34,882 bases of DNA. Source: Bacteroidales bacterium. Lineage in GTDB: Bacteria > Bacteroidota > Bacteroidia > Bacteroidales > JAIPAP01. Below, piece after piece: positions 15,030 through 23,430 of this stretch. The position numbers and the translations under genes were made by a program. The notes under the pieces were generated by a model. That model was not told the DNA's origin. It did no database searches and saw nothing but the letters and a program-made list of their open reading frames with translations. Each line of letters begins with the position of its first letter. The stretch's first letter is position 1. The stretch covers positions 1 to 34,882 of the forward strand of contig JAIPAP010000043.1 of the NCBI GenBank assembly GCA_021740045.1, in the 5' to 3' direction.

Positions 15030-16058
15030 ATGATGAAACTCAAAAAGCTTTTTTTTCTTCAAATGGTTTTACTGTTAAGTGGGGTCATCCTCTTCACTTC
15101 CTGTGGAACACAGCAACGCAAAAAAGATAAAGGAACGCCTTCAACCGGCAGCACCTCCGAAATACTTGTGGCTAGCGGTGGAACTCTTTGGGAGTCCTAT
15201 GTGGGAGACTCCATAAGGAGCTTTTTAAAACAGCCATACCAAGTTTTACCCCAGCGTGAACCAAGTTATCAAGTGGCTCACATTCCCAACAAAGATTTGA
15301 ATAAGGATATTTTCCGAACGCATCATAACATCCTCATCATCAATACCGATACGGCCATAGAAAAGCCCTTTGTCCGAACCCGTAAAAACCGTTATTCAAA
15401 TCCGCAACAAATTATTGAAATGAATGCCAACGACTGGCATGCATTTCTGAAATTATGGAATAAGAATAAAAAAACGGTGAAACATAAATTCGATCAAAAT
15501 GAGCTGAAGAGGTTGAACAATACGTTTTCTCATTTTAGAGACATTAAGATCATAAACAAGCTCATGGAAAAGCATGATCTTACCTTAACAGTTCCTGAGA
15601 GCTTCTATATTGCTAAAAATAATGATCAGTTTATTTGGCTTAGAAAGGAAACCAAAGAAATCAGCCAGGGCATAATTATCTTCTATCACGATTATACTGA
15701 TACTCTTTCTTTTGATCGTGAACGCATTATGTGGAAACTCGACTCCATTACCAAACGGCATATTCCCGGCCCCAGCAAAGGTTCTTATATGGCTTTGGAA
15801 CGTGAGTTCAAACCTCCAATAGCCCAAGAAGTAAGCTTTAATGGAAAATATGCCATGCAACTCCGTGGCTTATGGAAGACCGAAAATGACTTTATGGGCG
15901 GTCCATTTGTAAGTTACACCTTGGTTGATGAACGAAAAAACCGGCTAGTTACAGCTTATGGTTATGTATATGCACCCAAAGATGATAAGCGAAACTTTAC
16001 CCGGCAGGTAGACGCCATCCTCCATGCGCTGAGATTTAAAGAAAAACAAAAAGAGTAA
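15030..16058 (+). CDS. DUF4837 family lipoprotein
   Basis: A 342-aa lipoprotein with lipobox LFTSC (Cys25). After a low-complexity linker (to about residue 42), the body resembles DUF4837 of Bacteroidota, with markers VASGGTLWESYVGDSIR at about 48-64 and GGPFVSYTLVDERKNRLVTA near 290-310. The function is unknown. Two adjacent Met codons are possible at the start, and the first is used. It is 18 bp downstream of mltD and is followed 26 bp later by a strong hairpin terminator, so mltD-DUF4837 is probably one transcription unit and the product may work with MltD at the envelope. Confidence 0.82.
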   Translation: MMKLKKLFFLQMVLLLSGVILFTSCGTQQRKKDKGTPSTGSTSEILVASGGTLWESYVGDSIRSFLKQPYQVLPQREPSYQVAHIPNKDLNKDIFRTHHNILIINTDTAIEKPFVRTRKNRYSNPQQIIEMNANDWHAFLKLWNKNKKTVKHKFDQNELKRLNNTFSHFRDIKIINKLMEKHDLTLTVPESFYIAKNNDQFIWLRKETKEISQGIIIFYHDYTDTLSFDRERIMWKLDSITKRHIPGPSKGSYMALEREFKPPIAQEVSFNGKYAMQLRGLWKTENDFMGGPFVSYTLVDERKNRLVTAYGYVYAPKDDKRNFTRQVDAILHALRFKEKQKE

Positions 16059-16084: not shown

Positions 16085-16130
16085 TTGCCCTGTAAAATTT
16101 TTTCAAAAAAGTTTGCAGGGCAATTTTTTT
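16085..16130 (+). terminator. Intrinsic terminator after mltD-DUF4837
   Basis: Inverted repeat TTGCCCTGTAAA (16085-16096) and TTTGCAGGGCAA (16112-16123): 12 pairs with one G-U, plus extra A/T pairing inside the loop, followed directly by seven T (16124-16130). The TTTG at the start of the right arm also serves as the -33 element of the tetR promoter candidate. Confidence 0.85.
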
Positions 16131-16142
16131 ATTCTACTTTTG
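16112..16142 (+). promoter_or_regulatory. Promoter of the TetR-exporter operon
   Basis: TTTG (16112-16115), a 19-bp spacer, then TACTTTTG (16135-16142). This fits the Bacteroidota sigma-70 consensus TTTG-N19/20-TAnnTTTG at every fixed position. Transcription would start at about 16148-16150, exactly where the 13-bp repeat array begins. Confidence 0.72.
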
Positions 16143-16148
16143 CCCATA

Positions 16149-16200
16149 TGGTTTAACCAGGTGGTTAATCCAAATAGTTAAATCAAATGGTTAATAAACA
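16149..16200 (+). repeat. Four tandem 13-bp repeats, likely TetR operator array
   Basis: Four units start at 16149, 16162, 16175 and 16188, each beginning TGGTTtA, TGGTTAA, TAGTTAA and TGGTTAA. The last unit ends on the A of the tetR ATG. Within the array are two overlapping perfect inverted repeats: TGGTT-T-AACCA (16149-16159) and TTAACCA-GG-TGGTTAA (16153-16168). Its position between the promoter and the first codon of a TetR gene suggests the repressor's operator. Confidence 0.68.
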
Positions 16201-16814
16201 TGAATTTTAATAAAACTACCGAAGAGCATATTTTGCGAATAGCCCGCAATGTATTTGAACGGAAAGGATTCCAGGGGGCAAGGATGCAGGAAATCGCCAA
16301 TGAAGCTGGCATTAATAAATCACTTTTGCATTATTACTACCGTAGCAAGGAAAAACTGTTTCACAATGCCTACCGTAAGGCATTTGAAAGTATGATACCT
16401 GATGTTAGGGAAATATTCATGGGCCAAAAGCCCATTAAGGAGAAGATCAGGCTCTTTGCCGATAGCTACAGCCGTTTCCTGATGCAAAACCCGAATTTAC
16501 CTCATTTTGTATTGCATGAGTTAAACCGTGACCCCGAAAGCCTGCTTTCCATCATTAAAGAAGCAGGGATCGACCCTACACAATTCATAGGACAAATTAA
16601 AAAGGAAATGGAAGCCGGCAACATCATGCCTATGGATCCCCGGCAGTTGATGATAAACATCTTGTCGATGACTATTTTTCCATTTATTGCCAAGCCCATC
16701 ATCATGCCGGTTTTATGTGGAAACGATCAAGAGGTTTATAAACAACTTATTGAAGAGCGAAAGAAACTCATCCCTGAATTTTTTACCAATGTGATGATTA
16801 AAGATGATAATTAG
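16200..16814 (+). CDS. TetR/AcrR family transcriptional regulator
   Basis: A 204-aa regulator with an N-terminal TetR helix-turn-helix at about residues 8-55. Recognition segments are ARMQEIANEAGINKSLL and HYYYRSKEKLF. The C-terminal half is the variable ligand-binding and dimerisation domain. It is the first gene of an eight-gene exporter operon and probably represses it, sensing a toxic compound carried by the pump, as CecR (YbiH) does for ybhGFSR in E. coli. The tandem repeats immediately upstream are the obvious operator candidates and imply autoregulation. The inducer cannot be predicted. TolC follows 22 bp downstream. Confidence 0.92.
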   Translation: MNFNKTTEEHILRIARNVFERKGFQGARMQEIANEAGINKSLLHYYYRSKEKLFHNAYRKAFESMIPDVREIFMGQKPIKEKIRLFADSYSRFLMQNPNLPHFVLHELNRDPESLLSIIKEAGIDPTQFIGQIKKEMEAGNIMPMDPRQLMINILSMTIFPFIAKPIIMPVLCGNDQEVYKQLIEERKKLIPEFFTNVMIKDDN

Positions 16815-16836: not shown

Positions 16837-18159
16837 ATGAAGCATATGAAAAGGTTAATCAGCTTTTTATTACTACTGATGATGAGTTTGCAAATGCAGG
16901 CCGGATCAGCTGATACACTGGAACTATCAACCATTTACCAAGATTTACTGAACAAGCATCCGTTGGCCGAACAATCGGCCCTGTTGGCGAAATCAAGCCG
17001 GCTAACCCTTGAAAACATCCGGACCGGATATTTACCGCAGCTCAGCTTGAATGCCCAGGCCACTTACCAGTCGGAGGTAACGAAAGTAGAACTGGGATTT
17101 CCCGAAAGTTTTCCGGTATCCCCCGATCAGATTAAAATACCGGAAGTAAATAAGGATATGTACAAGGCCACTTTGGACGTAAATCAAATGATTTATGACG
17201 GGGGCATTACAGCTCATCGAAAAGATGTGGAAGAAGTTTCGCTGGAGATAAACCGCAAAGAAGTGGATGTGGAATTTCATCAACTCAAACAGCGAATCAA
17301 CCAACTGTATTTTTCGGTTTTGATGTTCGAAAAGCAAAAGGAGCAAATGCTTTTAAGGAAACGCGATATTGAATCCCGTTTGGATAATCTTCGTTCGGCC
17401 GTGGAAAGTGGCACCGTGTTAAAAAGCAATGCCCGGGAGCTGGAAGCAGAATTGCTTAAGATCGATCAGCAGCTTGAAAGTATAGATGCATCACGTGTTG
17501 CTGCTGTTAAAGCCATAAGAAGAATAAGCGGTAAGAAGATGCCGCTTGATATTACCTGCAAGCTGCCTGATTTGAACCTGGGTAATATGAAGCACCAATT
17601 CAACTCACGCCCCGAAATGGAAAAAATAAGTCTGCAAAAGGAGCAGCTTGGCTTTTCCAAGGATTTGTTAAAAGCTAAAAAACGACCCCGGTTGGTGGGA
17701 TTTGGTCAATTAGGATATGGACGTCCTGGCTTGAACATGCTCTCCGATGAACTCGATTCATTTTATTTATTGGGTGCCAAGCTCCAATGGAATATATGGG
17801 ATTGGGATCAGAACAAGAATGAACGAAAAATCCTCAATGTGAAAAGAGCATTGCTTGATAACCGGCAGGAAGTGATGAAGAATAATTTCGATGCAGCTCT
17901 TAAGCCTGTTCTTGCCGACATTGAGAAATATAACAGCTTATTAATGACCGATAAAGAGATCATAGAGCTAAGAGAAGAAATTGCAGAAAGCGCTGCCTCT
18001 CAGCTTGAAAACGGTACGATTACCTCAACCGAATATCTCATCAAGGTCAACGCCGAAAGCCGTGCCAGGCTCGACCGCGAGGTGCACCGTATTAAACTGG
18101 TTCATGCAAAACTGCAGTATTTGGAAATAACCGGACAATTGGAAAAAATTATAAAATAA
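16837..18159 (+). CDS. TolC family outer membrane efflux protein
   Basis: Outer-membrane channel component of a tripartite exporter. The 440-aa protein has a signal peptide (about 1-22, ending MQAG) and two long helical OEP-type repeats: about 35-220 with LENIRTGYLPQLSLNAQATY, and about 245-435 with SRPEMEKISLQKEQLG and PRLVGFGQLGYG. The sequence AQLQWNIWDWDQ-type strand (AKLQWNIWDWDQ) is the expected beta-barrel segment. The length is normal for the family. The gene sits between the regulator and the adaptor (6 bp gap), so the system carries a dedicated outer-membrane factor, unlike E. coli ybhGFSR, which has no linked tolC. Confidence 0.92.
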   Translation: MKHMKRLISFLLLLMMSLQMQAGSADTLELSTIYQDLLNKHPLAEQSALLAKSSRLTLENIRTGYLPQLSLNAQATYQSEVTKVELGFPESFPVSPDQIKIPEVNKDMYKATLDVNQMIYDGGITAHRKDVEEVSLEINRKEVDVEFHQLKQRINQLYFSVLMFEKQKEQMLLRKRDIESRLDNLRSAVESGTVLKSNARELEAELLKIDQQLESIDASRVAAVKAIRRISGKKMPLDITCKLPDLNLGNMKHQFNSRPEMEKISLQKEQLGFSKDLLKAKKRPRLVGFGQLGYGRPGLNMLSDELDSFYLLGAKLQWNIWDWDQNKNERKILNVKRALLDNRQEVMKNNFDAALKPVLADIEKYNSLLMTDKEIIELREEIAESAASQLENGTITSTEYLIKVNAESRARLDREVHRIKLVHAKLQYLEITGQLEKIIK

Positions 18160-18165
18160 ATTGTT

Positions 18166-19050
18166 ATGAAAAATCATTGGATGCTAATTTTATTAATGGC
18201 ACTGTTGGCTTCCTGCTCCGAAAATGGAAATAAGTCGGATGCTTACGGAAACTTCGAATCAAAAGAGATCACGGTCTCTGCCGAAGCCAATGGAAAACTG
18301 GTAAACCTGAATCTGGAAGAGGGGGATCAACTGAAAAAGGGGCAGAAAGTGGGTATGATCGATACCACTGCTTATTGGTTGAAGAAAAAGCAACTCTTGT
18401 CGCAAAAAGAGGCCGTGGCTTCTAAACTGGACAACATCGAAGCACAGATTAATGTGCAGAAGCAGCAAAAAGAGAATCTGACGGTCACAAAAAAACGGAT
18501 TCAAAAAATGCTTGACGATGGCGCCGCCACCGGGCAGCAGATGGATGATATCATTGGTAAGATCAAAGTGGTGGAAAAGCAAATACAAGCCACCAAAACT
18601 CAGCGCGATAATATCTACAAAGAACTCGAAACACTGAACACAAAGCTTGAAGAGGTTCAGAAAAATATTAATGATTGCTTTATCATCAATCCGGTTAAGG
18701 GAACCGTACTTACAAAATATACCCATGAAAATGAATTCACTGCAATGGGAAAACCGGTTTACAACATCGCCGACCTGTCATCAATGGAACTTAGGGTATA
18801 TGTGAGCGGAGGTCAGCTTCACAAGGTAAAACTGCGGCAAGAAGTTGATGTTTTGATCGACAAAGGAAAAGAGGATTACAAAACCATGCCGGGTACCGTA
18901 AGCTGGATTGCCGATGAAGCCGAATTCACACCCAAGATCATTCAAACCAAGGAGGAACGTGTTAACCTGGTTTATGCGGTTAAAATAAGAGTTAAAAATG
19001 ACGGTAGCATTAAAATAGGGATGCCCGGCGAAATTCGAATTAAAAACTAA
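18166..19050 (+). CDS. HlyD/YbhG-type membrane fusion lipoprotein
   Basis: Periplasmic adaptor that links the ABC-2 permeases to TolC. The 294 aa start with a lipoprotein signal, lipobox LLASC (Cys17). A first biotinyl-lipoyl half is at about 35-65 (ANGKLVNLNLEEGDQLKKGQ), a long coiled-coil hairpin at about 68-175, and the second lipoyl half and barrel at about 180-290 (INPVKGTVLTKYTHENEF). The lipid anchor replaces the N-terminal TM helix found in many HlyD proteins. The closest operon analogue is E. coli YbhG. The gap to TolC is 6 bp and to DUF2147 11 bp. Confidence 0.9.
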   Translation: MKNHWMLILLMALLASCSENGNKSDAYGNFESKEITVSAEANGKLVNLNLEEGDQLKKGQKVGMIDTTAYWLKKKQLLSQKEAVASKLDNIEAQINVQKQQKENLTVTKKRIQKMLDDGAATGQQMDDIIGKIKVVEKQIQATKTQRDNIYKELETLNTKLEEVQKNINDCFIINPVKGTVLTKYTHENEFTAMGKPVYNIADLSSMELRVYVSGGQLHKVKLRQEVDVLIDKGKEDYKTMPGTVSWIADEAEFTPKIIQTKEERVNLVYAVKIRVKNDGSIKIGMPGEIRIKN

Positions 19051-19061
19051 ATCAATTGAAT

Positions 19062-19526
19062 ATGAAAAGAACTGCTTATTTAATAATTGGCCTGTTGATA
19101 GTTCTTGGTGTCAAGGATATCCAGGCTCAGGAATTTCCTGCCGAAGCCATAACCGGTGTTTGGTACAATGAGGAAAAAACCGCCCGGATTAAGATCTATC
19201 AGCAAGATGAGCAATTTTTTGGCAAGATCATCTGGCTAAAAGAACCCCTCGATCCCGAAACCGGAGAGCCCAAACTGGATAAGGAAAATCCCGAAGAGGA
19301 ATTACGCAACCGCCCGGTAAAAGGATTGGTAATGCTGAAGAATTTTGAATACGATGGTGATAGCGAATACACCGGGGGAACTATTTACGATCCGAAAAAT
19401 GGAAAGACCTACAAATGCAAAATGACATTGGAATCAGAAGACCAACTCGATGTACGCGGCTACATAGGATATTCATGGATGGGTCTTGGAAGAACCACGG
19501 AATGGACAAGGTATAAAGGAAAATGA
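19062..19526 (+). CDS. DUF2147 family secreted protein
   Basis: A 154-aa protein with a signal peptide (about 1-23, ending IQAQ) and a DUF2147 domain (about 25-152). Hallmarks are ITGVWYNEEKTARIKIYQ, FFGKIIWLKEP, GGTIYDPKNGKTYKCKMTL and RGYIGYSWMGLGRTTEW. The ATG at 19062 is preferred over the in-frame TTG two codons earlier. DUF2147 proteins are small beta-rich exported proteins, and their biochemical role is not established. Here the gene lies inside the exporter operon and overlaps the first ATPase gene by 4 bp (ATGA), so it is translated in step with the pump. It may bind the exported compound or damaged lipid in the periplasm; that is inference. Confidence 0.85.
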   Translation: MKRTAYLIIGLLIVLGVKDIQAQEFPAEAITGVWYNEEKTARIKIYQQDEQFFGKIIWLKEPLDPETGEPKLDKENPEEELRNRPVKGLVMLKNFEYDGDSEYTGGTIYDPKNGKTYKCKMTLESEDQLDVRGYIGYSWMGLGRTTEWTRYKGK

Positions 19527-20437
19527 TAAACACAGCGGTTAGCATAAAAAACGTAAAAAAAACCTATGGTGAGGTCGAAGCGTTGCACAACATTAATGTT
19601 GATGTTAGCGAAGGTGAATTGTTCGGATTCATTGGCCCTGATGGTGCAGGAAAAACTTCCCTGTTCAGGATACTGGTCACTCTTTTGCTGCCCACCGAAG
19701 GAGCGGCTTCAATCTTCGATATGGATGTGGTAAAAGATTTTAAAAAGCTAAGGCGGATATTGGGCTACATGCCGGGGCGATTTTCCCTATACCAGGACCT
19801 GACCGTGGAGGAAAACCTCAATTTTTTTGCCACCACCTTTGGCACTACCATAAAAGAGAATTATTATCTGATAGAAAGTATTTATAAGCAGATAGAACCT
19901 TTTAAAAAACGGCGTGCCGGTGCTTTGTCGGGCGGTATGAAGCAAAAGTTGGCCCTTTCCTGTGCACTCATTCATAAACCCAGGCTGTTGGTGCTGGATG
20001 AACCAACTACAGGAGTTGATGCCGTTTCGCGAAGTGAATTCTGGGACATGCTAGGGAACCTGAAGAAAATGGGCATAACCGTGGTAGTTTCCACTCCCTA
20101 TATGGATGAAGCGGGCTTATGCGACCGGGTGGCCCTGATTCAAAAAGGGCGGCTCCTGAGTGTTGATACCCCGCAAAATATCATGAACGGATATGATGAG
20201 GATCTCTGGGCTGTGCGAAGTAAAAACATCTACAAGCTTATTGAAGACCTGAGGCAGTTGGAGGAGGTTAGTTCGGCTTTTCCATTCGGTGAATATGTGC
20301 ATGTATCAACACCACCGGATAGAATCAATCAAAAAATGATTGAAAATTTACTGGAAAAGAAGGGACATGACACGGTGGAGGTGAAAAAGATCGGCGCCAC
20401 CATTGAGGATTGTTTTATGAAATTGATGAAAAACTAA
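19523..20437 (+). CDS. ABC exporter ATPase, YbhF N-half type (degenerate catalytic site)
   Basis: First nucleotide-binding subunit of the ABC-2 exporter, 304 aa. Walker A GPDGAGKTS (38-46), signature LSGGMKQ (135-141) and Walker B LLVLDE (155-160) are present. Two residues are missing: the Q-loop position in GYMPG reads Gly85 instead of Gln, and the H-loop position in STPYMDEA reads Pro192 instead of His. It resembles the first half of E. coli YbhF, where both halves form one chain. A C-terminal tail of about 85 residues follows the ATPase core. It overlaps DUF2147 by 4 bp and is 4 bp from the second ATPase. Confidence 0.92.
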   Translation: MINTAVSIKNVKKTYGEVEALHNINVDVSEGELFGFIGPDGAGKTSLFRILVTLLLPTEGAASIFDMDVVKDFKKLRRILGYMPGRFSLYQDLTVEENLNFFATTFGTTIKENYYLIESIYKQIEPFKKRRAGALSGGMKQKLALSCALIHKPRLLVLDEPTTGVDAVSRSEFWDMLGNLKKMGITVVVSTPYMDEAGLCDRVALIQKGRLLSVDTPQNIMNGYDEDLWAVRSKNIYKLIEDLRQLEEVSSAFPFGEYVHVSTPPDRINQKMIENLLEKKGHDTVEVKKIGATIEDCFMKLMKN

Positions 20438-20441
20438 CAGC

Positions 20442-21176
20442 ATGGCAGGAGAAAATGGATATATTGTTGATGTTAAAGAGCTGACTAAAAAATTCGGGAA
20501 TTTTATTGCAAATGACCGCTTAACTTTCAATGTATCGCCCGGGGAAATTTTTGGCTTTCTGGGAGCTAATGGGGCAGGTAAAACCACCGCCATAAAAATA
20601 TTGTGCGGGCTTTCGTCGCCCACTTCCGGCGAAGCTACCATTGCCGGTTACAATGTATACCGCGAAACAGAAAAGATAAAGCAAAATATCGGTTACATGA
20701 GCCAACAATTCTCCCTGTATGAAGACCTGACGGTTTATGAAAACTTTAGGTTTTACGGGGGCATTTATGGCTTATCGCGAAAAGTGATCAGAAAACGCAC
20801 GGAAGAATTGCTGCACGAACTTAACATGGAAAAGGTTAAAAACCGGGTGATCCATTCCCTCCCATTAGGGTGGAAGCAAAAACTGGCTTTTTCGGTAGCC
20901 ATCATTCATCAACCCAAATTGATTTTTTTAGATGAACCCACTAGTGGTGTTGATCCCATTACCCGCCGGCAATTCTGGGAAATGATCTATAAAACCGCAC
21001 AAGATGGAATCACGGTATTCATTACCACGCATTATATGGATGAAGCCGAATATTGTGGGCGGGTTTCCATAATGGCCGAAGGAAAGATCAAAGCCATTGG
21101 ATCACCCAACGATCTGAAAAGTCAGTATGATGCTCACAATATGAATGACTTGTTTATCAAACTGGTAAGAAATTAA
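20442..21176 (+). CDS. ABC exporter ATPase, YbhF C-half type (degenerate signature)
   Basis: Second nucleotide-binding subunit, 244 aa. Walker A GANGAGKTT (41-49), Q-loop Gln88 in YMSQ, Walker B IFLDE (161-165) and H-loop His197 in TTHYMDEA are intact. The signature reads LPLGWKQ (140-146) instead of LSGGQ. A heterodimer with the first ATPase would therefore have one full site (this Walker A, Q and H with the partner's LSGG) and one degenerate site. It corresponds to the second half of E. coli YbhF. The gaps are 4 bp on both sides. Confidence 0.93.
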   Translation: MAGENGYIVDVKELTKKFGNFIANDRLTFNVSPGEIFGFLGANGAGKTTAIKILCGLSSPTSGEATIAGYNVYRETEKIKQNIGYMSQQFSLYEDLTVYENFRFYGGIYGLSRKVIRKRTEELLHELNMEKVKNRVIHSLPLGWKQKLAFSVAIIHQPKLIFLDEPTSGVDPITRRQFWEMIYKTAQDGITVFITTHYMDEAEYCGRVSIMAEGKIKAIGSPNDLKSQYDAHNMNDLFIKLVRN

Positions 21177-21180
21177 TGAT

Positions 21181-22287
21181 ATGAAACGTTTTTTCGGATT
21201 TGTAACTAAGGAGTTTTATCACATCTTCAGGGATGTCCGAACCATTCTTATCCTGTTCGGAATGCCCATTGCACAGATTCTCATCTTTGGTTATGTGATC
21301 ACCAATGAGATCAAAGATGTGAACATTGCCGTCCTTGATCATTCCAAAGATGAGGTTACACGGGAGATAACCGATAAATTGCTGTCGTCCGGTTATTTCA
21401 TTTTGAACAAAAAGCTGGAGACCAATGACCAGATACAGGAAGAATTCGAAAAAGGAGATATCAGGGAGGTAATCATCTTTGGGGATAATTTTGCCCGGAA
21501 GCTTCAAAAGGAGAAAGCCGCCGATGTGCAAATTATAACTGATGCCTCCGATGCTAATACGGCCAATTTAGTAAGGAATTACACCCAGGCCATCATTAAT
21601 GATTATGTAAAAGAGAAAAACGCCACCATATTGCAACCTGCCAGGTTGGTTCCCGAAATACGCATGCTTTTCAATCCTGAGCTTAAGGGGACATATATGT
21701 ATGTTCCGGGTACCATGGCCATGATCCTTATGCTCATATCGGCCATGATGACATCAATAACCATTGCCCGCGAAAAGGAAATGGGCACCATGGAAGTCTT
21801 GCTGGTTTCACCACTCAGGCCCGCCCAGATCATTTTGGGAAAAGTGGCTCCTTATGTAATGCTGTCATTCGCCAATGCGGTTTCAATCATTGTTTTGGGC
21901 TATTTTGTTTTCGGTGTTCCGGTGCAGGGGAGTTTGGTACTACTGCTAGCGGAGAGCTTGCTGTTCATAACCCTTGCACTTTCATTGGGAATATTGATAT
22001 CTACCGTTAGCACCGGACAGCAAATGGCGATGTTTATTTCGATGTTTGCCCTGATGTTACCAACCATCTTGTTATCGGGATTTATTTTCCCCATCGAGAA
22101 TATGCCCGAGATCTTGCAATGGCTTACCCTGATCATGCCGCCCCGTTGGTTTATCACCATCATTAAAAATATTATGGTGAAGGGAACCGGGTTACTGTTT
22201 GTATGGAAAGAAACCCTCATATTGGTAGGGATTACTTTAGTTTTCATTGTTTTAAGTGTTCGGAATTTTAAAATCAGACTGGAATAG
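21181..22287 (+). CDS. ABC-2 type permease (YbhS-like)
   Basis: Inner-membrane permease subunit of 368 aa with the ABC2_membrane_3 layout: one TM helix near the N-terminus (about 22-42), a large periplasmic domain (about 45-175) and five TM helices in the C-terminal half. The conserved cytoplasmic coupling segment AREKEMGTMEVLLVSPL is at about 197-213. The LSGFIFPIENMP segment before the last helices is typical of drug exporters of this type. It resembles YbhS. With the second permease it would form a heterodimeric pore. It lies 4 bp downstream of ATPase 2 and 12 bp upstream of permease 2. Confidence 0.92.
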   Translation: MKRFFGFVTKEFYHIFRDVRTILILFGMPIAQILIFGYVITNEIKDVNIAVLDHSKDEVTREITDKLLSSGYFILNKKLETNDQIQEEFEKGDIREVIIFGDNFARKLQKEKAADVQIITDASDANTANLVRNYTQAIINDYVKEKNATILQPARLVPEIRMLFNPELKGTYMYVPGTMAMILMLISAMMTSITIAREKEMGTMEVLLVSPLRPAQIILGKVAPYVMLSFANAVSIIVLGYFVFGVPVQGSLVLLLAESLLFITLALSLGILISTVSTGQQMAMFISMFALMLPTILLSGFIFPIENMPEILQWLTLIMPPRWFITIIKNIMVKGTGLLFVWKETLILVGITLVFIVLSVRNFKIRLE

Positions 22288-22299
22288 GAGGGGGAAGAT

Positions 22300-23430
22300 A
22301 TGCGAACAATAGGATTTATTTTGCAAAAGGAATTCATACAGATATTCAGGAACAAAACCATGCTTCCCATCATTTTTATAGTGCCTGTTGTACAGTTGTT
22401 GATCCTTGTTCACGCAGCAACCTTCGACATGAAACATATCGATATGTATGTGGTGGATAAAGACCTCTCCTCAGCGTCTCGTCAATTGGTAAGTAAGTTT
22501 GAAGGCTCGCCTTTTTTCTTTGTAAATCAGCAATCGTTTTCTGTGGAGAATGGAGAAGATCATTTGATCACCAATGAAGCCGATGTTGTATTGCACATTC
22601 ATGAAGGATTTGAAAAAGACTTGATGGTGCAGCCCGGAACTAAAAGCCAGGCTAAAATGCAGTTGCTAATCAATGCGGTTAACGGCACCAAGGCCGGCTT
22701 GATAAACGCATACTCCACCAATGTGATCGCCGATTTCAGAAAGGAGATCATTAAAAGCGAGAACCTGATAGCAAAAGGTGAAATTCCGTCAGCAATCAAT
22801 GTCAACTTTTCACATTGGTATAATCCGGAGTTGAATTATAAGATTTTTATGCTGCCGGGCATTTTGGTTATCCTGATCACCATTATCGGGATGTTTCTTT
22901 CGGCCCTCAACCTGGTGCGAGAAAAGGAAATGGGCACCAGCGAACAGATTAATGTAACACCTATCAGAAAATACCAGTTCATTATTGGGAAACTATTGCC
23001 GTTTTGGATCATTGCCTTATTTGAATTGGCCATAGGTCTTGTAATAGGATATTTTGCATTTAGTGTACCCATACTGGGAAATATCTCCACACTGGTTTTA
23101 TTTGCTGCCATATACCTGTTTGCAGTATTGGGAATAGGATTGTTTATTTCCACGGTTTCGTCTACACAACAGCAAGTCATGTTTGTGTCATTTTTCTTTA
23201 TGCTTACTTTTATTTTAATGAGTGGCATTTTTACTCCTGTGGAGAGCATGCCCGGATGGGCGCAAAACCTTAATATTATCAATCCTTTCGCTTATTTTAT
23301 CAGGGTGATAAGAATGATCCTGCTCAAGGGTTCAGACATGATTGATATTTCACGTGAAATTGTTTCAATGAGCTTATATGCGTTAATTTCACTAAGCTTT
23401 GCTGTTTGGCGCTACCGGAAAGTGGCATAA
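22300..23430 (+). CDS. ABC-2 type permease (YbhR-like)
   Basis: Second permease subunit, 376 aa, with the same layout as its neighbour: an N-terminal TM (about 22-42), a periplasmic domain (to about 178), then five TM helices. The coupling segment VREKEMGTSEQINVTPI is at about 205-221 and MSGIFTPVESMPGW near 307-320. It resembles YbhR and is the last gene of the operon. A 12-bp core palindrome of parS type (TTTCACGTGAAA) lies in the C-terminal coding part, at 23348-23359. No strong T-run terminator follows. Confidence 0.92.
   Translation: MRTIGFILQKEFIQIFRNKTMLPIIFIVPVVQLLILVHAATFDMKHIDMYVVDKDLSSASRQLVSKFEGSPFFFVNQQSFSVENGEDHLITNEADVVLHIHEGFEKDLMVQPGTKSQAKMQLLINAVNGTKAGLINAYSTNVIADFRKEIIKSENLIAKGEIPSAINVNFSHWYNPELNYKIFMLPGILVILITIIGMFLSALNLVREKEMGTSEQINVTPIRKYQFIIGKLLPFWIIALFELAIGLVIGYFAFSVPILGNISTLVLFAAIYLFAVLGIGLFISTVSSTQQQVMFVSFFFMLTFILMSGIFTPVESMPGWAQNLNIINPFAYFIRVIRMILLKGSDMIDISREIVSMSLYALISLSFAVWRYRKVA
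23346..23361. promoter_or_regulatory. Degenerate parS-like site inside permease 2 (13/16)
   Basis: TATTTCACGTGAAATT keeps the full 12-bp palindromic core TTTCACGTGAAA of symmetric parS variants but differs at three outer positions. It is within the coding sequence (Ile-Ser-Arg-Glu-Ile). Weak when taken alone. Confidence 0.35.

Follow-up and report, generated by a model that had tools for sequence, protein, structure and literature searches.

Operators of TetR-family regulators are usually considered to consist of one or two palindromes, and QacR is said to bind its operator cooperatively as two dimers. The nearest functional parallel to the locus analyzed herein is EthR of mycobacteria, a TetR/CamR family autorepressor which is reported to assemble as a cooperative homo-octamer, namely four dimers, on one operator (PMC5403819). 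In DarR, two dimers occupy overlapping palindromes (PMC10636190). In this study, we analyzed a 34,882-nucleotide stretch of Bacteroidales DNA (hereafter, the window), in which four phased dyads, three of them imperfect, precede a tetR gene and might offer EthR-like room for four dimers. The likeness to EthR would lie in autorepression from a multi-dimer operator, with cooperativity being reported for EthR; EthR differs in that it acts at the divergent ethA-ethR promoter, and a regular, variable-copy 13-bp array is not mentioned in the available part of the EthR account (PMC5403819). Among the open-licence papers listed in our literature searches, no report was found of a regular array, conserved across orders, in which dyads (mostly two to seven) recur every 13 bp in combination with a helix-residue code. 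While DarR and QacR place two dimers on a short site, arrays of the window type mostly comprise two to seven dyads set 13 bp apart.

Regulator, export operon, and predicted promoter

The gene directly downstream of the array (16200-16814, + strand) encodes a 204-aa TetR-family regulator (TetR_N, 7.6e-14), the proposed ligand of the array. Its membership of the TetR/AcrR family was indicated by the TetR_N helix-turn-helix PF00440 (51.7 bits against a cut-off of 24) and by the all-helical TetR fold of its structural model (pLDDT 89.1), with Foldseek matches to RutR, HlyIIR, FasR, and DarR. A palindromic operator at its own promoter was likewise found, at the level of sequence, in the form of the promoter array and the helix covariation described below. 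The best Foldseek matches were RutR chains (E 1.4e-07), HlyIIR and RefZ also being listed, and the best sequence-profile match was 3s5r, followed by HlyIIR. RutR, HlyIIR, and RefZ/YttP have the TetR fold in common with the window regulator but differ from it in operators and roles. An attempt to name the regulator by NCBIfam equivalog was unsuccessful, in that none of the 14 listed families exceeded its cut-off, the best being RefZ with 58.8 bits against 180. The recognition helix, starting from K40, lies within INKSLLHYYY (I38-Y47) and spans residues 40-46 in the model.

The regulator gene heads an operon, tetR-TolC-HlyD-DUF2147-ABC-ABC-ABC2-ABC2, which runs entirely on the + strand to 23430. 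The putative first target gene (16837-18159) encodes a TolC-type outer-membrane efflux protein (OEP, 1.2e-21), and domain searches assigned the following genes to an HlyD-type periplasmic adaptor (18166-19050), a DUF2147 protein (19056-19526), two ABC ATPases (19523-20437 and 20442-21176), and two ABC-2 permeases (21181-22287 and 22300-23430). The DUF2147 gene, for which a TTG start is listed, lies between the HlyD and ABC ATPase genes, within the exporter operon.

Bacteroidota promoters follow the -33/-7 consensus TTTG-N19-21-TAnnTTTG. By fit to this consensus, a -33 element TTTG was predicted at 16112-16115 (+) and, after a spacing of 19 nt, a -7 element TACTTTTG at 16135-16142 (+), which matches TAnnTTTG, the -7 form expected for the primary sigma factor. 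Transcription was predicted to start near 16147-16150. Farther upstream lies a DUF4837 gene (15030-16058, domain search), followed by an inverted repeat (16085-16123, +; 19-nt arms, 89% complementary, 1 nt between) and a run of seven T (16124-16130, +). This repeat, whose 3' arm overlaps the -33 element, is a probable intrinsic terminator of the DUF4837 gene; a terminator consensus scan that required a 3-8 nt loop did not list it.

The 13-bp array in the tetR leader

Direct reading of the leader, together with a position weight matrix (PWM) and comparison of the units, resolved an array at 16144-16195 (+) of four 13-bp units in exact 13-bp steps with no indel, followed by AAAC and then by the ATG, whose A is at 16200. 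The sequence-only reading had placed four phased 13-bp repeats at 16149-16200; these are real, and that register corresponds to the conserved-register array shifted by 5 bp. Unit 1 (16144-16156, CCATATGGTTTAA) has its dyad centre at 16147/16148, and its left half-site is overlapped by the 3' end of the -7 element. Unit 2 (16157-16169, CCAGGTGGTTAAT; centre 16160/16161) carries the best palindrome, TTAACCA-GG-TGGTTAA with 7-bp arms at 16153-16168. This palindrome overlaps a second one with an odd centre, TGGTTTAACCA at 16149-16159, so that both overlapping palindromes claimed earlier are present. Unit 3 (16170-16182, CCAAATAGTTAAA; centre 16173/16174) is degenerate, and unit 4 (16183-16195, TCAAATGGTTAAT; centre 16186/16187) is imperfect. 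Dyad 2 is the only near-perfect one in the window; units 1, 3, and 4 are imperfect palindromes, of which unit 3 is the worst.

Within the array, 28 of 39 positions were identical at lag 13, and across all lags between 6 and 26 none of 5000 dinucleotide shuffles matched this fraction. When 52-base stretches of the window, spaced by more than 40 bases, were ranked by their highest lag identity, the array came first (0.77 at lag 26), with the runner-up at 0.68. In addition, a PWM built from 108 orthologue leaders, the window being excluded, gave the array 49.1 bits; the top scores elsewhere in the window were 13.2 bits (+ strand) and 11.2 bits (- strand). A periodicity arising by chance in AT-rich DNA was ruled out by these shuffles together with the controls and the conservation described below.

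The array was also confined to this gene. A search of the own 3.9-Mb genome for the two-unit pattern, allowing 3 mismatches, found only this array (five overlapping matches; reversed control, 0), and a wider regulon was rejected, since no second two-unit array occurred in that genome within 3 mismatches. Among 119 genomes of the order, the pattern at up to 2 mismatches was present in 18 (own included), with no match in the other 101; all 24 matches adjoined the 5' side of this tetR, and the reversed control pattern gave 2 matches. The position of all 24 copies just upstream of this tetR points to a cognate, single-target operator.

For comparison with other TetR genes, a control set was assembled from the own genome and 12 relatives, giving 32 loci for 38 listed matches, 31 of which were scorable (L248 was too short). 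TetR genes of other families scored below 7 bits with the PWM in all 25 cases, with a single unit. One of these 25 leaders (L264) reached 28 in the motif-free scan described below, so that the motif-free score alone is not proof of an array. Four members of the set (L236, L241, L242, and L247) are orthologues or near homologues and scored between 7.7 and 33.4; Leu40 and an altered half-site were present in the two with the lowest scores. No array was seen in L243, a homologue of greater distance (PWM -0.8).

Two other patterns were observed in the control set. In six leaders from another TetR family, whose helix is SKKTLY or alike (L244, L245, L257, L258, L262, and L266), GGAAAC and/or GTTTCC half-sites are located near the promoter, which suggests a different, family-specific operator. 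Likewise, L235 (own genome, C67) and L261 have in common CGTTCAGTCA soon after the TTTGAC of a -7-like box, perhaps another family-specific operator.

Conservation across orthologous loci

Homologues of the regulator (E 1e-15 or better) were found in 189 of 295 genomes of the same order. Leaders of orthologous tetR genes, whose proteins are 36-50% identical, carry the same repeats, mostly straight after the -7 box, with the unit consensus CCANNTGGTTAAA; many, not all, loci in other orders of the class carry them as well. The quantitative comparison was based on 108 orthologue leaders, namely 111 loci minus the window, the paralogue L002, and L057 at a contig edge. Their lag-13 identity was 0.461, while DNA lying farther upstream gave 0.276 and coding DNA 0.211; identity at lags 26 and 39 was raised too. 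With the PWM, at least 6 bits were reached by 106 of the 108 training loci, for which this count is circular, and, outside the training, by 27 of 540 leader shuffles and by 2 of 108 stretches of coding DNA; the window score likewise stands outside the training. The shuffles used for the PWM counts, for the motif-free scan, and for the scan of later-gathered loci preserve single-base content only.

As a motif-free approach, leaders were scanned under the assumption of palindromy and a 13-bp phase. From 233 loci, 207 distinct ones were obtained and 204 scanned, three with less than 60 nt upstream being dropped. Of these, 172, window included, were at or above the 99th percentile of the shuffles and 32 below it, with mean scores of 29.3 for the loci and 21.7 for the shuffles. 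A profile scan of named genomes, in which 80 of 583 loci were kept, extended the range: 55 of 65 distinct scored records of named organisms reached the 99th-percentile level, including 9 of 10 from Chitinophagaceae (the tenth unscorable), 4 of 5 from Rhodothermia/Balneolaceae, 2 of 3 from Ignavibacteria, and the sole Flagellimonas record. A single-protein scan of the named genomes confirmed no relative. One array (score 30) lies before a Bacteroidota-type tetR on a contig labelled Desulfobulbaceae (L226), representing either a transfer or a mis-binned contig.

The genomic context was conserved together with the array. Among 126 loci for which 600 nt or more of downstream sequence was available, 120 had TolC and/or HlyD genes next. 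The first unit began 0-1 nt after TTTG in 110 of 202 loci, and 107 of these 110 read TAnnTTTG; so close a spacing places part of the first dyad's left half-site within the -7 box. Conservation of the repeats upstream of orthologous operons, which the sequence-only reading had proposed as a check, was thus borne out, the repeats being kept with the operon.

Runs of the PWM in the 108 orthologues comprised one unit in 4 loci, two in 20, three in 47, four in 31, five in 5, and seven in 1. The seven-unit locus (L051) contains three identical 13-mers and one near copy; the identical copies point to gain of units by tandem duplication, and L051 would therefore represent a recent expansion of the operator array. 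This variation bears on whether binding is limited, as for ordinary TetR operators, to one or two dimers on the better dyads, with the remaining repeats being little-functional relics of tandem duplication. Such a reading would be in accordance with the single near-perfect dyad of the window, with the orthologues having runs of only two units or one, and with the gain by duplication seen in L051. On the other hand, at least three units in exact phase were found in 84 of 108 orthologues, loci that also trained the PWM, and useless copies should decay at 36-50% protein identity, whereas identity at lags 26 and 39 is still raised. We therefore regard occupancy of merely one or two dyads as unlikely, albeit to be taken seriously, and the best reading is autorepression by several dimers, probably in a cooperative manner. 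The varying copy number among orthologues also provides a natural series for how operator number shapes repression.

Dyad assignment, residue 40, and proposed mode of repression

Two dyads are embedded in the repeat, one centred on the NN of the unit and the other, GGTTAAACC, centred on A11. Isolated elements favored the former, with 24 of TTAACCNNNNGGTTAA against 5 of GGTTWAACC, and the A11-centred dyad was rejected as the dimer site on this ground. The dimer site is thus most likely TTAACCANNTGGTTAA, centred on NN, with dyads 13 bp apart. Chains of half-sites ended on a left half in 77 of 183 cases, i.e., not always on a complete dyad.

To relate half-sites to the regulator, 193 loci with a score of at least 24 and a readable helix were compared. 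In most Lys40 loci, unit position 7 is G or A and position 8 is G. The majority base at position 7 was T in 8 of 9 Arg40 loci (RT in seven, RA in one, and RP in one) versus 9 of 179 Lys40 loci (Fisher 6e-9, shared ancestry ignored), and the majority base at position 8 was G in 161 of 188 Lys/Arg40 loci versus 0 of 5 Ile/Leu/Pro40 loci (Fisher 9.5e-5, shared ancestry ignored). A search for more Arg40 members in two families yielded two further loci, L229 and L230. The shuffle threshold was reached by 8 of 9 Arg40, 5 of 5 Ile/Leu/Pro40, and 158 of 189 Lys40 loci. These counts suggest that replacement of Lys40 by Arg or by Leu/Ile/Pro is accompanied by a base change at position 7 or 8 of the array, whose 13-bp phase is mostly kept. 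This covariation between protein and DNA is the strongest evidence for the operator assignment.

Leu/Ile40 loci gathered later followed the same pattern: none of 31 had majority G at position 8 (13 ties), 27 of 31 had G at position 7, and the phasing of the array was maintained, with a mean of 31.1 against 22.3 for shuffled leaders over a search span of 200 nt upstream, compared with 140 nt in the earlier motif-free scan. Because L292 and L301 duplicate L136 and L139, the new loci number 29; in L290, L304, and L313 the best-scoring place is unlike the array. Apart from L241 and L242, the later loci were retrieved through their similarity to L144 and are hence not independent events. On the tree, Arg40 occurs at four positions, counted as three changes, although only one is required by branches with good support. 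A single supported clade comprises four of the five Ile/Leu/Pro40 loci, and the later loci were mostly found via similarity to one of its members.

A possible parallel is offered by DarR, in which Lys44 and Gly45 of the recognition helix make the base contacts (PMC10636190). Two orthologues with the helix INKG (L128 and L142) showed no tandem array in the motif-free scan. Upstream of L128, TTTACCC..GGGTAAA was present, and its occurrence with INKG raises the possibility that residue 41 sets position 9.

Recognition of the array by a regulator other than the adjacent TetR would be hard to reconcile with these findings. Every two-unit match in the 119 genomes adjoins this tetR, and the base preferences follow residue 40 of the neighboring protein. 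Furthermore, genome G191 has two paralogues, L033 with Lys40 and GGTTAA and L094 with Arg40 and TGTCAA, each accompanied by the array type that its own helix predicts. We consider such a foreign regulator highly improbable. That the leader array serves as the operator of the TetR encoded directly downstream, repressing the export operon, is accordingly held with high confidence on the sequence evidence, and the earlier proposal of several operator units for one downstream TetR is strongly supported by the operon-linked conservation, the location at this gene only, and the recognition-helix covariation.

The position of the array also raised the possibility of action at the RNA level, through leader hairpins or a block of translation initiation, the latter having been suggested in the sequence-only reading. 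The array does lie in the 5' leader and reaches the ATG, its palindromes can pair in RNA, and in 20 of 106 orthologues the ATG coincides with a unit's NTG (p 1.6e-4 for this single offset, with a scored stretch that ran 20 nt past the ATG and may favor the fit). Nevertheless, the fold energy of the leader was ordinary (z -1.40; 15 of 200 shuffles folded at least as well), no Rfam family reached its gathering score in the leader, and the base changes track the recognition helix of the regulator, unlike those of a purely RNA element. An RNA leader element was rejected on the Rfam and fold results, and the block of translation initiation found no support, the conserved symmetry being that of a DNA-binding site. 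Either form of RNA-level action thus seems very remote.

For multi-dimer autorepression, the following mechanism is proposed. Each TetR dimer would recognize one TTAACCANNTGGTTAA palindrome, and the four dyads, one near-perfect and three imperfect, would be aligned head to tail at exactly 13 bp, an arrangement in which neighboring sites share flanking bases. By arithmetic (34.3 degrees per bp), neighboring dyads lie approximately 86 degrees apart round B-DNA. Beginning at the 3' edge of the -7 box, the array stops just short of the start codon, and dimers bound simultaneously would mask the -7 box together with the transcription start and the DNA transcribed first. Dimers positioned over the -7 box and the start would repress the whole export operon, tetR included, and repression would be released by a ligand, presumably an exporter substrate. 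Cooperative repression is plausible from the geometry of the array; units 1, 3, and 4 of the window, being imperfect palindromes, could be occupied weakly or not at all.

As a broader and tentative extension, to which we give somewhat less than even credence, TetR proteins of this clade, Bacteroidota-wide and in Ignavibacteria and Rhodothermia, might form a one-dimensional polymer, with dimers side by side every 13 bp. The copy number, mostly two to seven, would shift by 13-bp duplication and thereby tune the strength and steepness of repression, while the geometry would stay constant and the half-site would be rewritten via residue 40. The array offers a compact, tunable control element for Bacteroidota. 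The covariation also suggests a simple code, residue 40 with positions 7 and 8, which could predict the operators of many unstudied Bacteroidota efflux regulators. In L066, L095, and L099, a single isolated TTAACCANNTGGTTAA is located farther upstream of the leader array, possibly representing a second operator.
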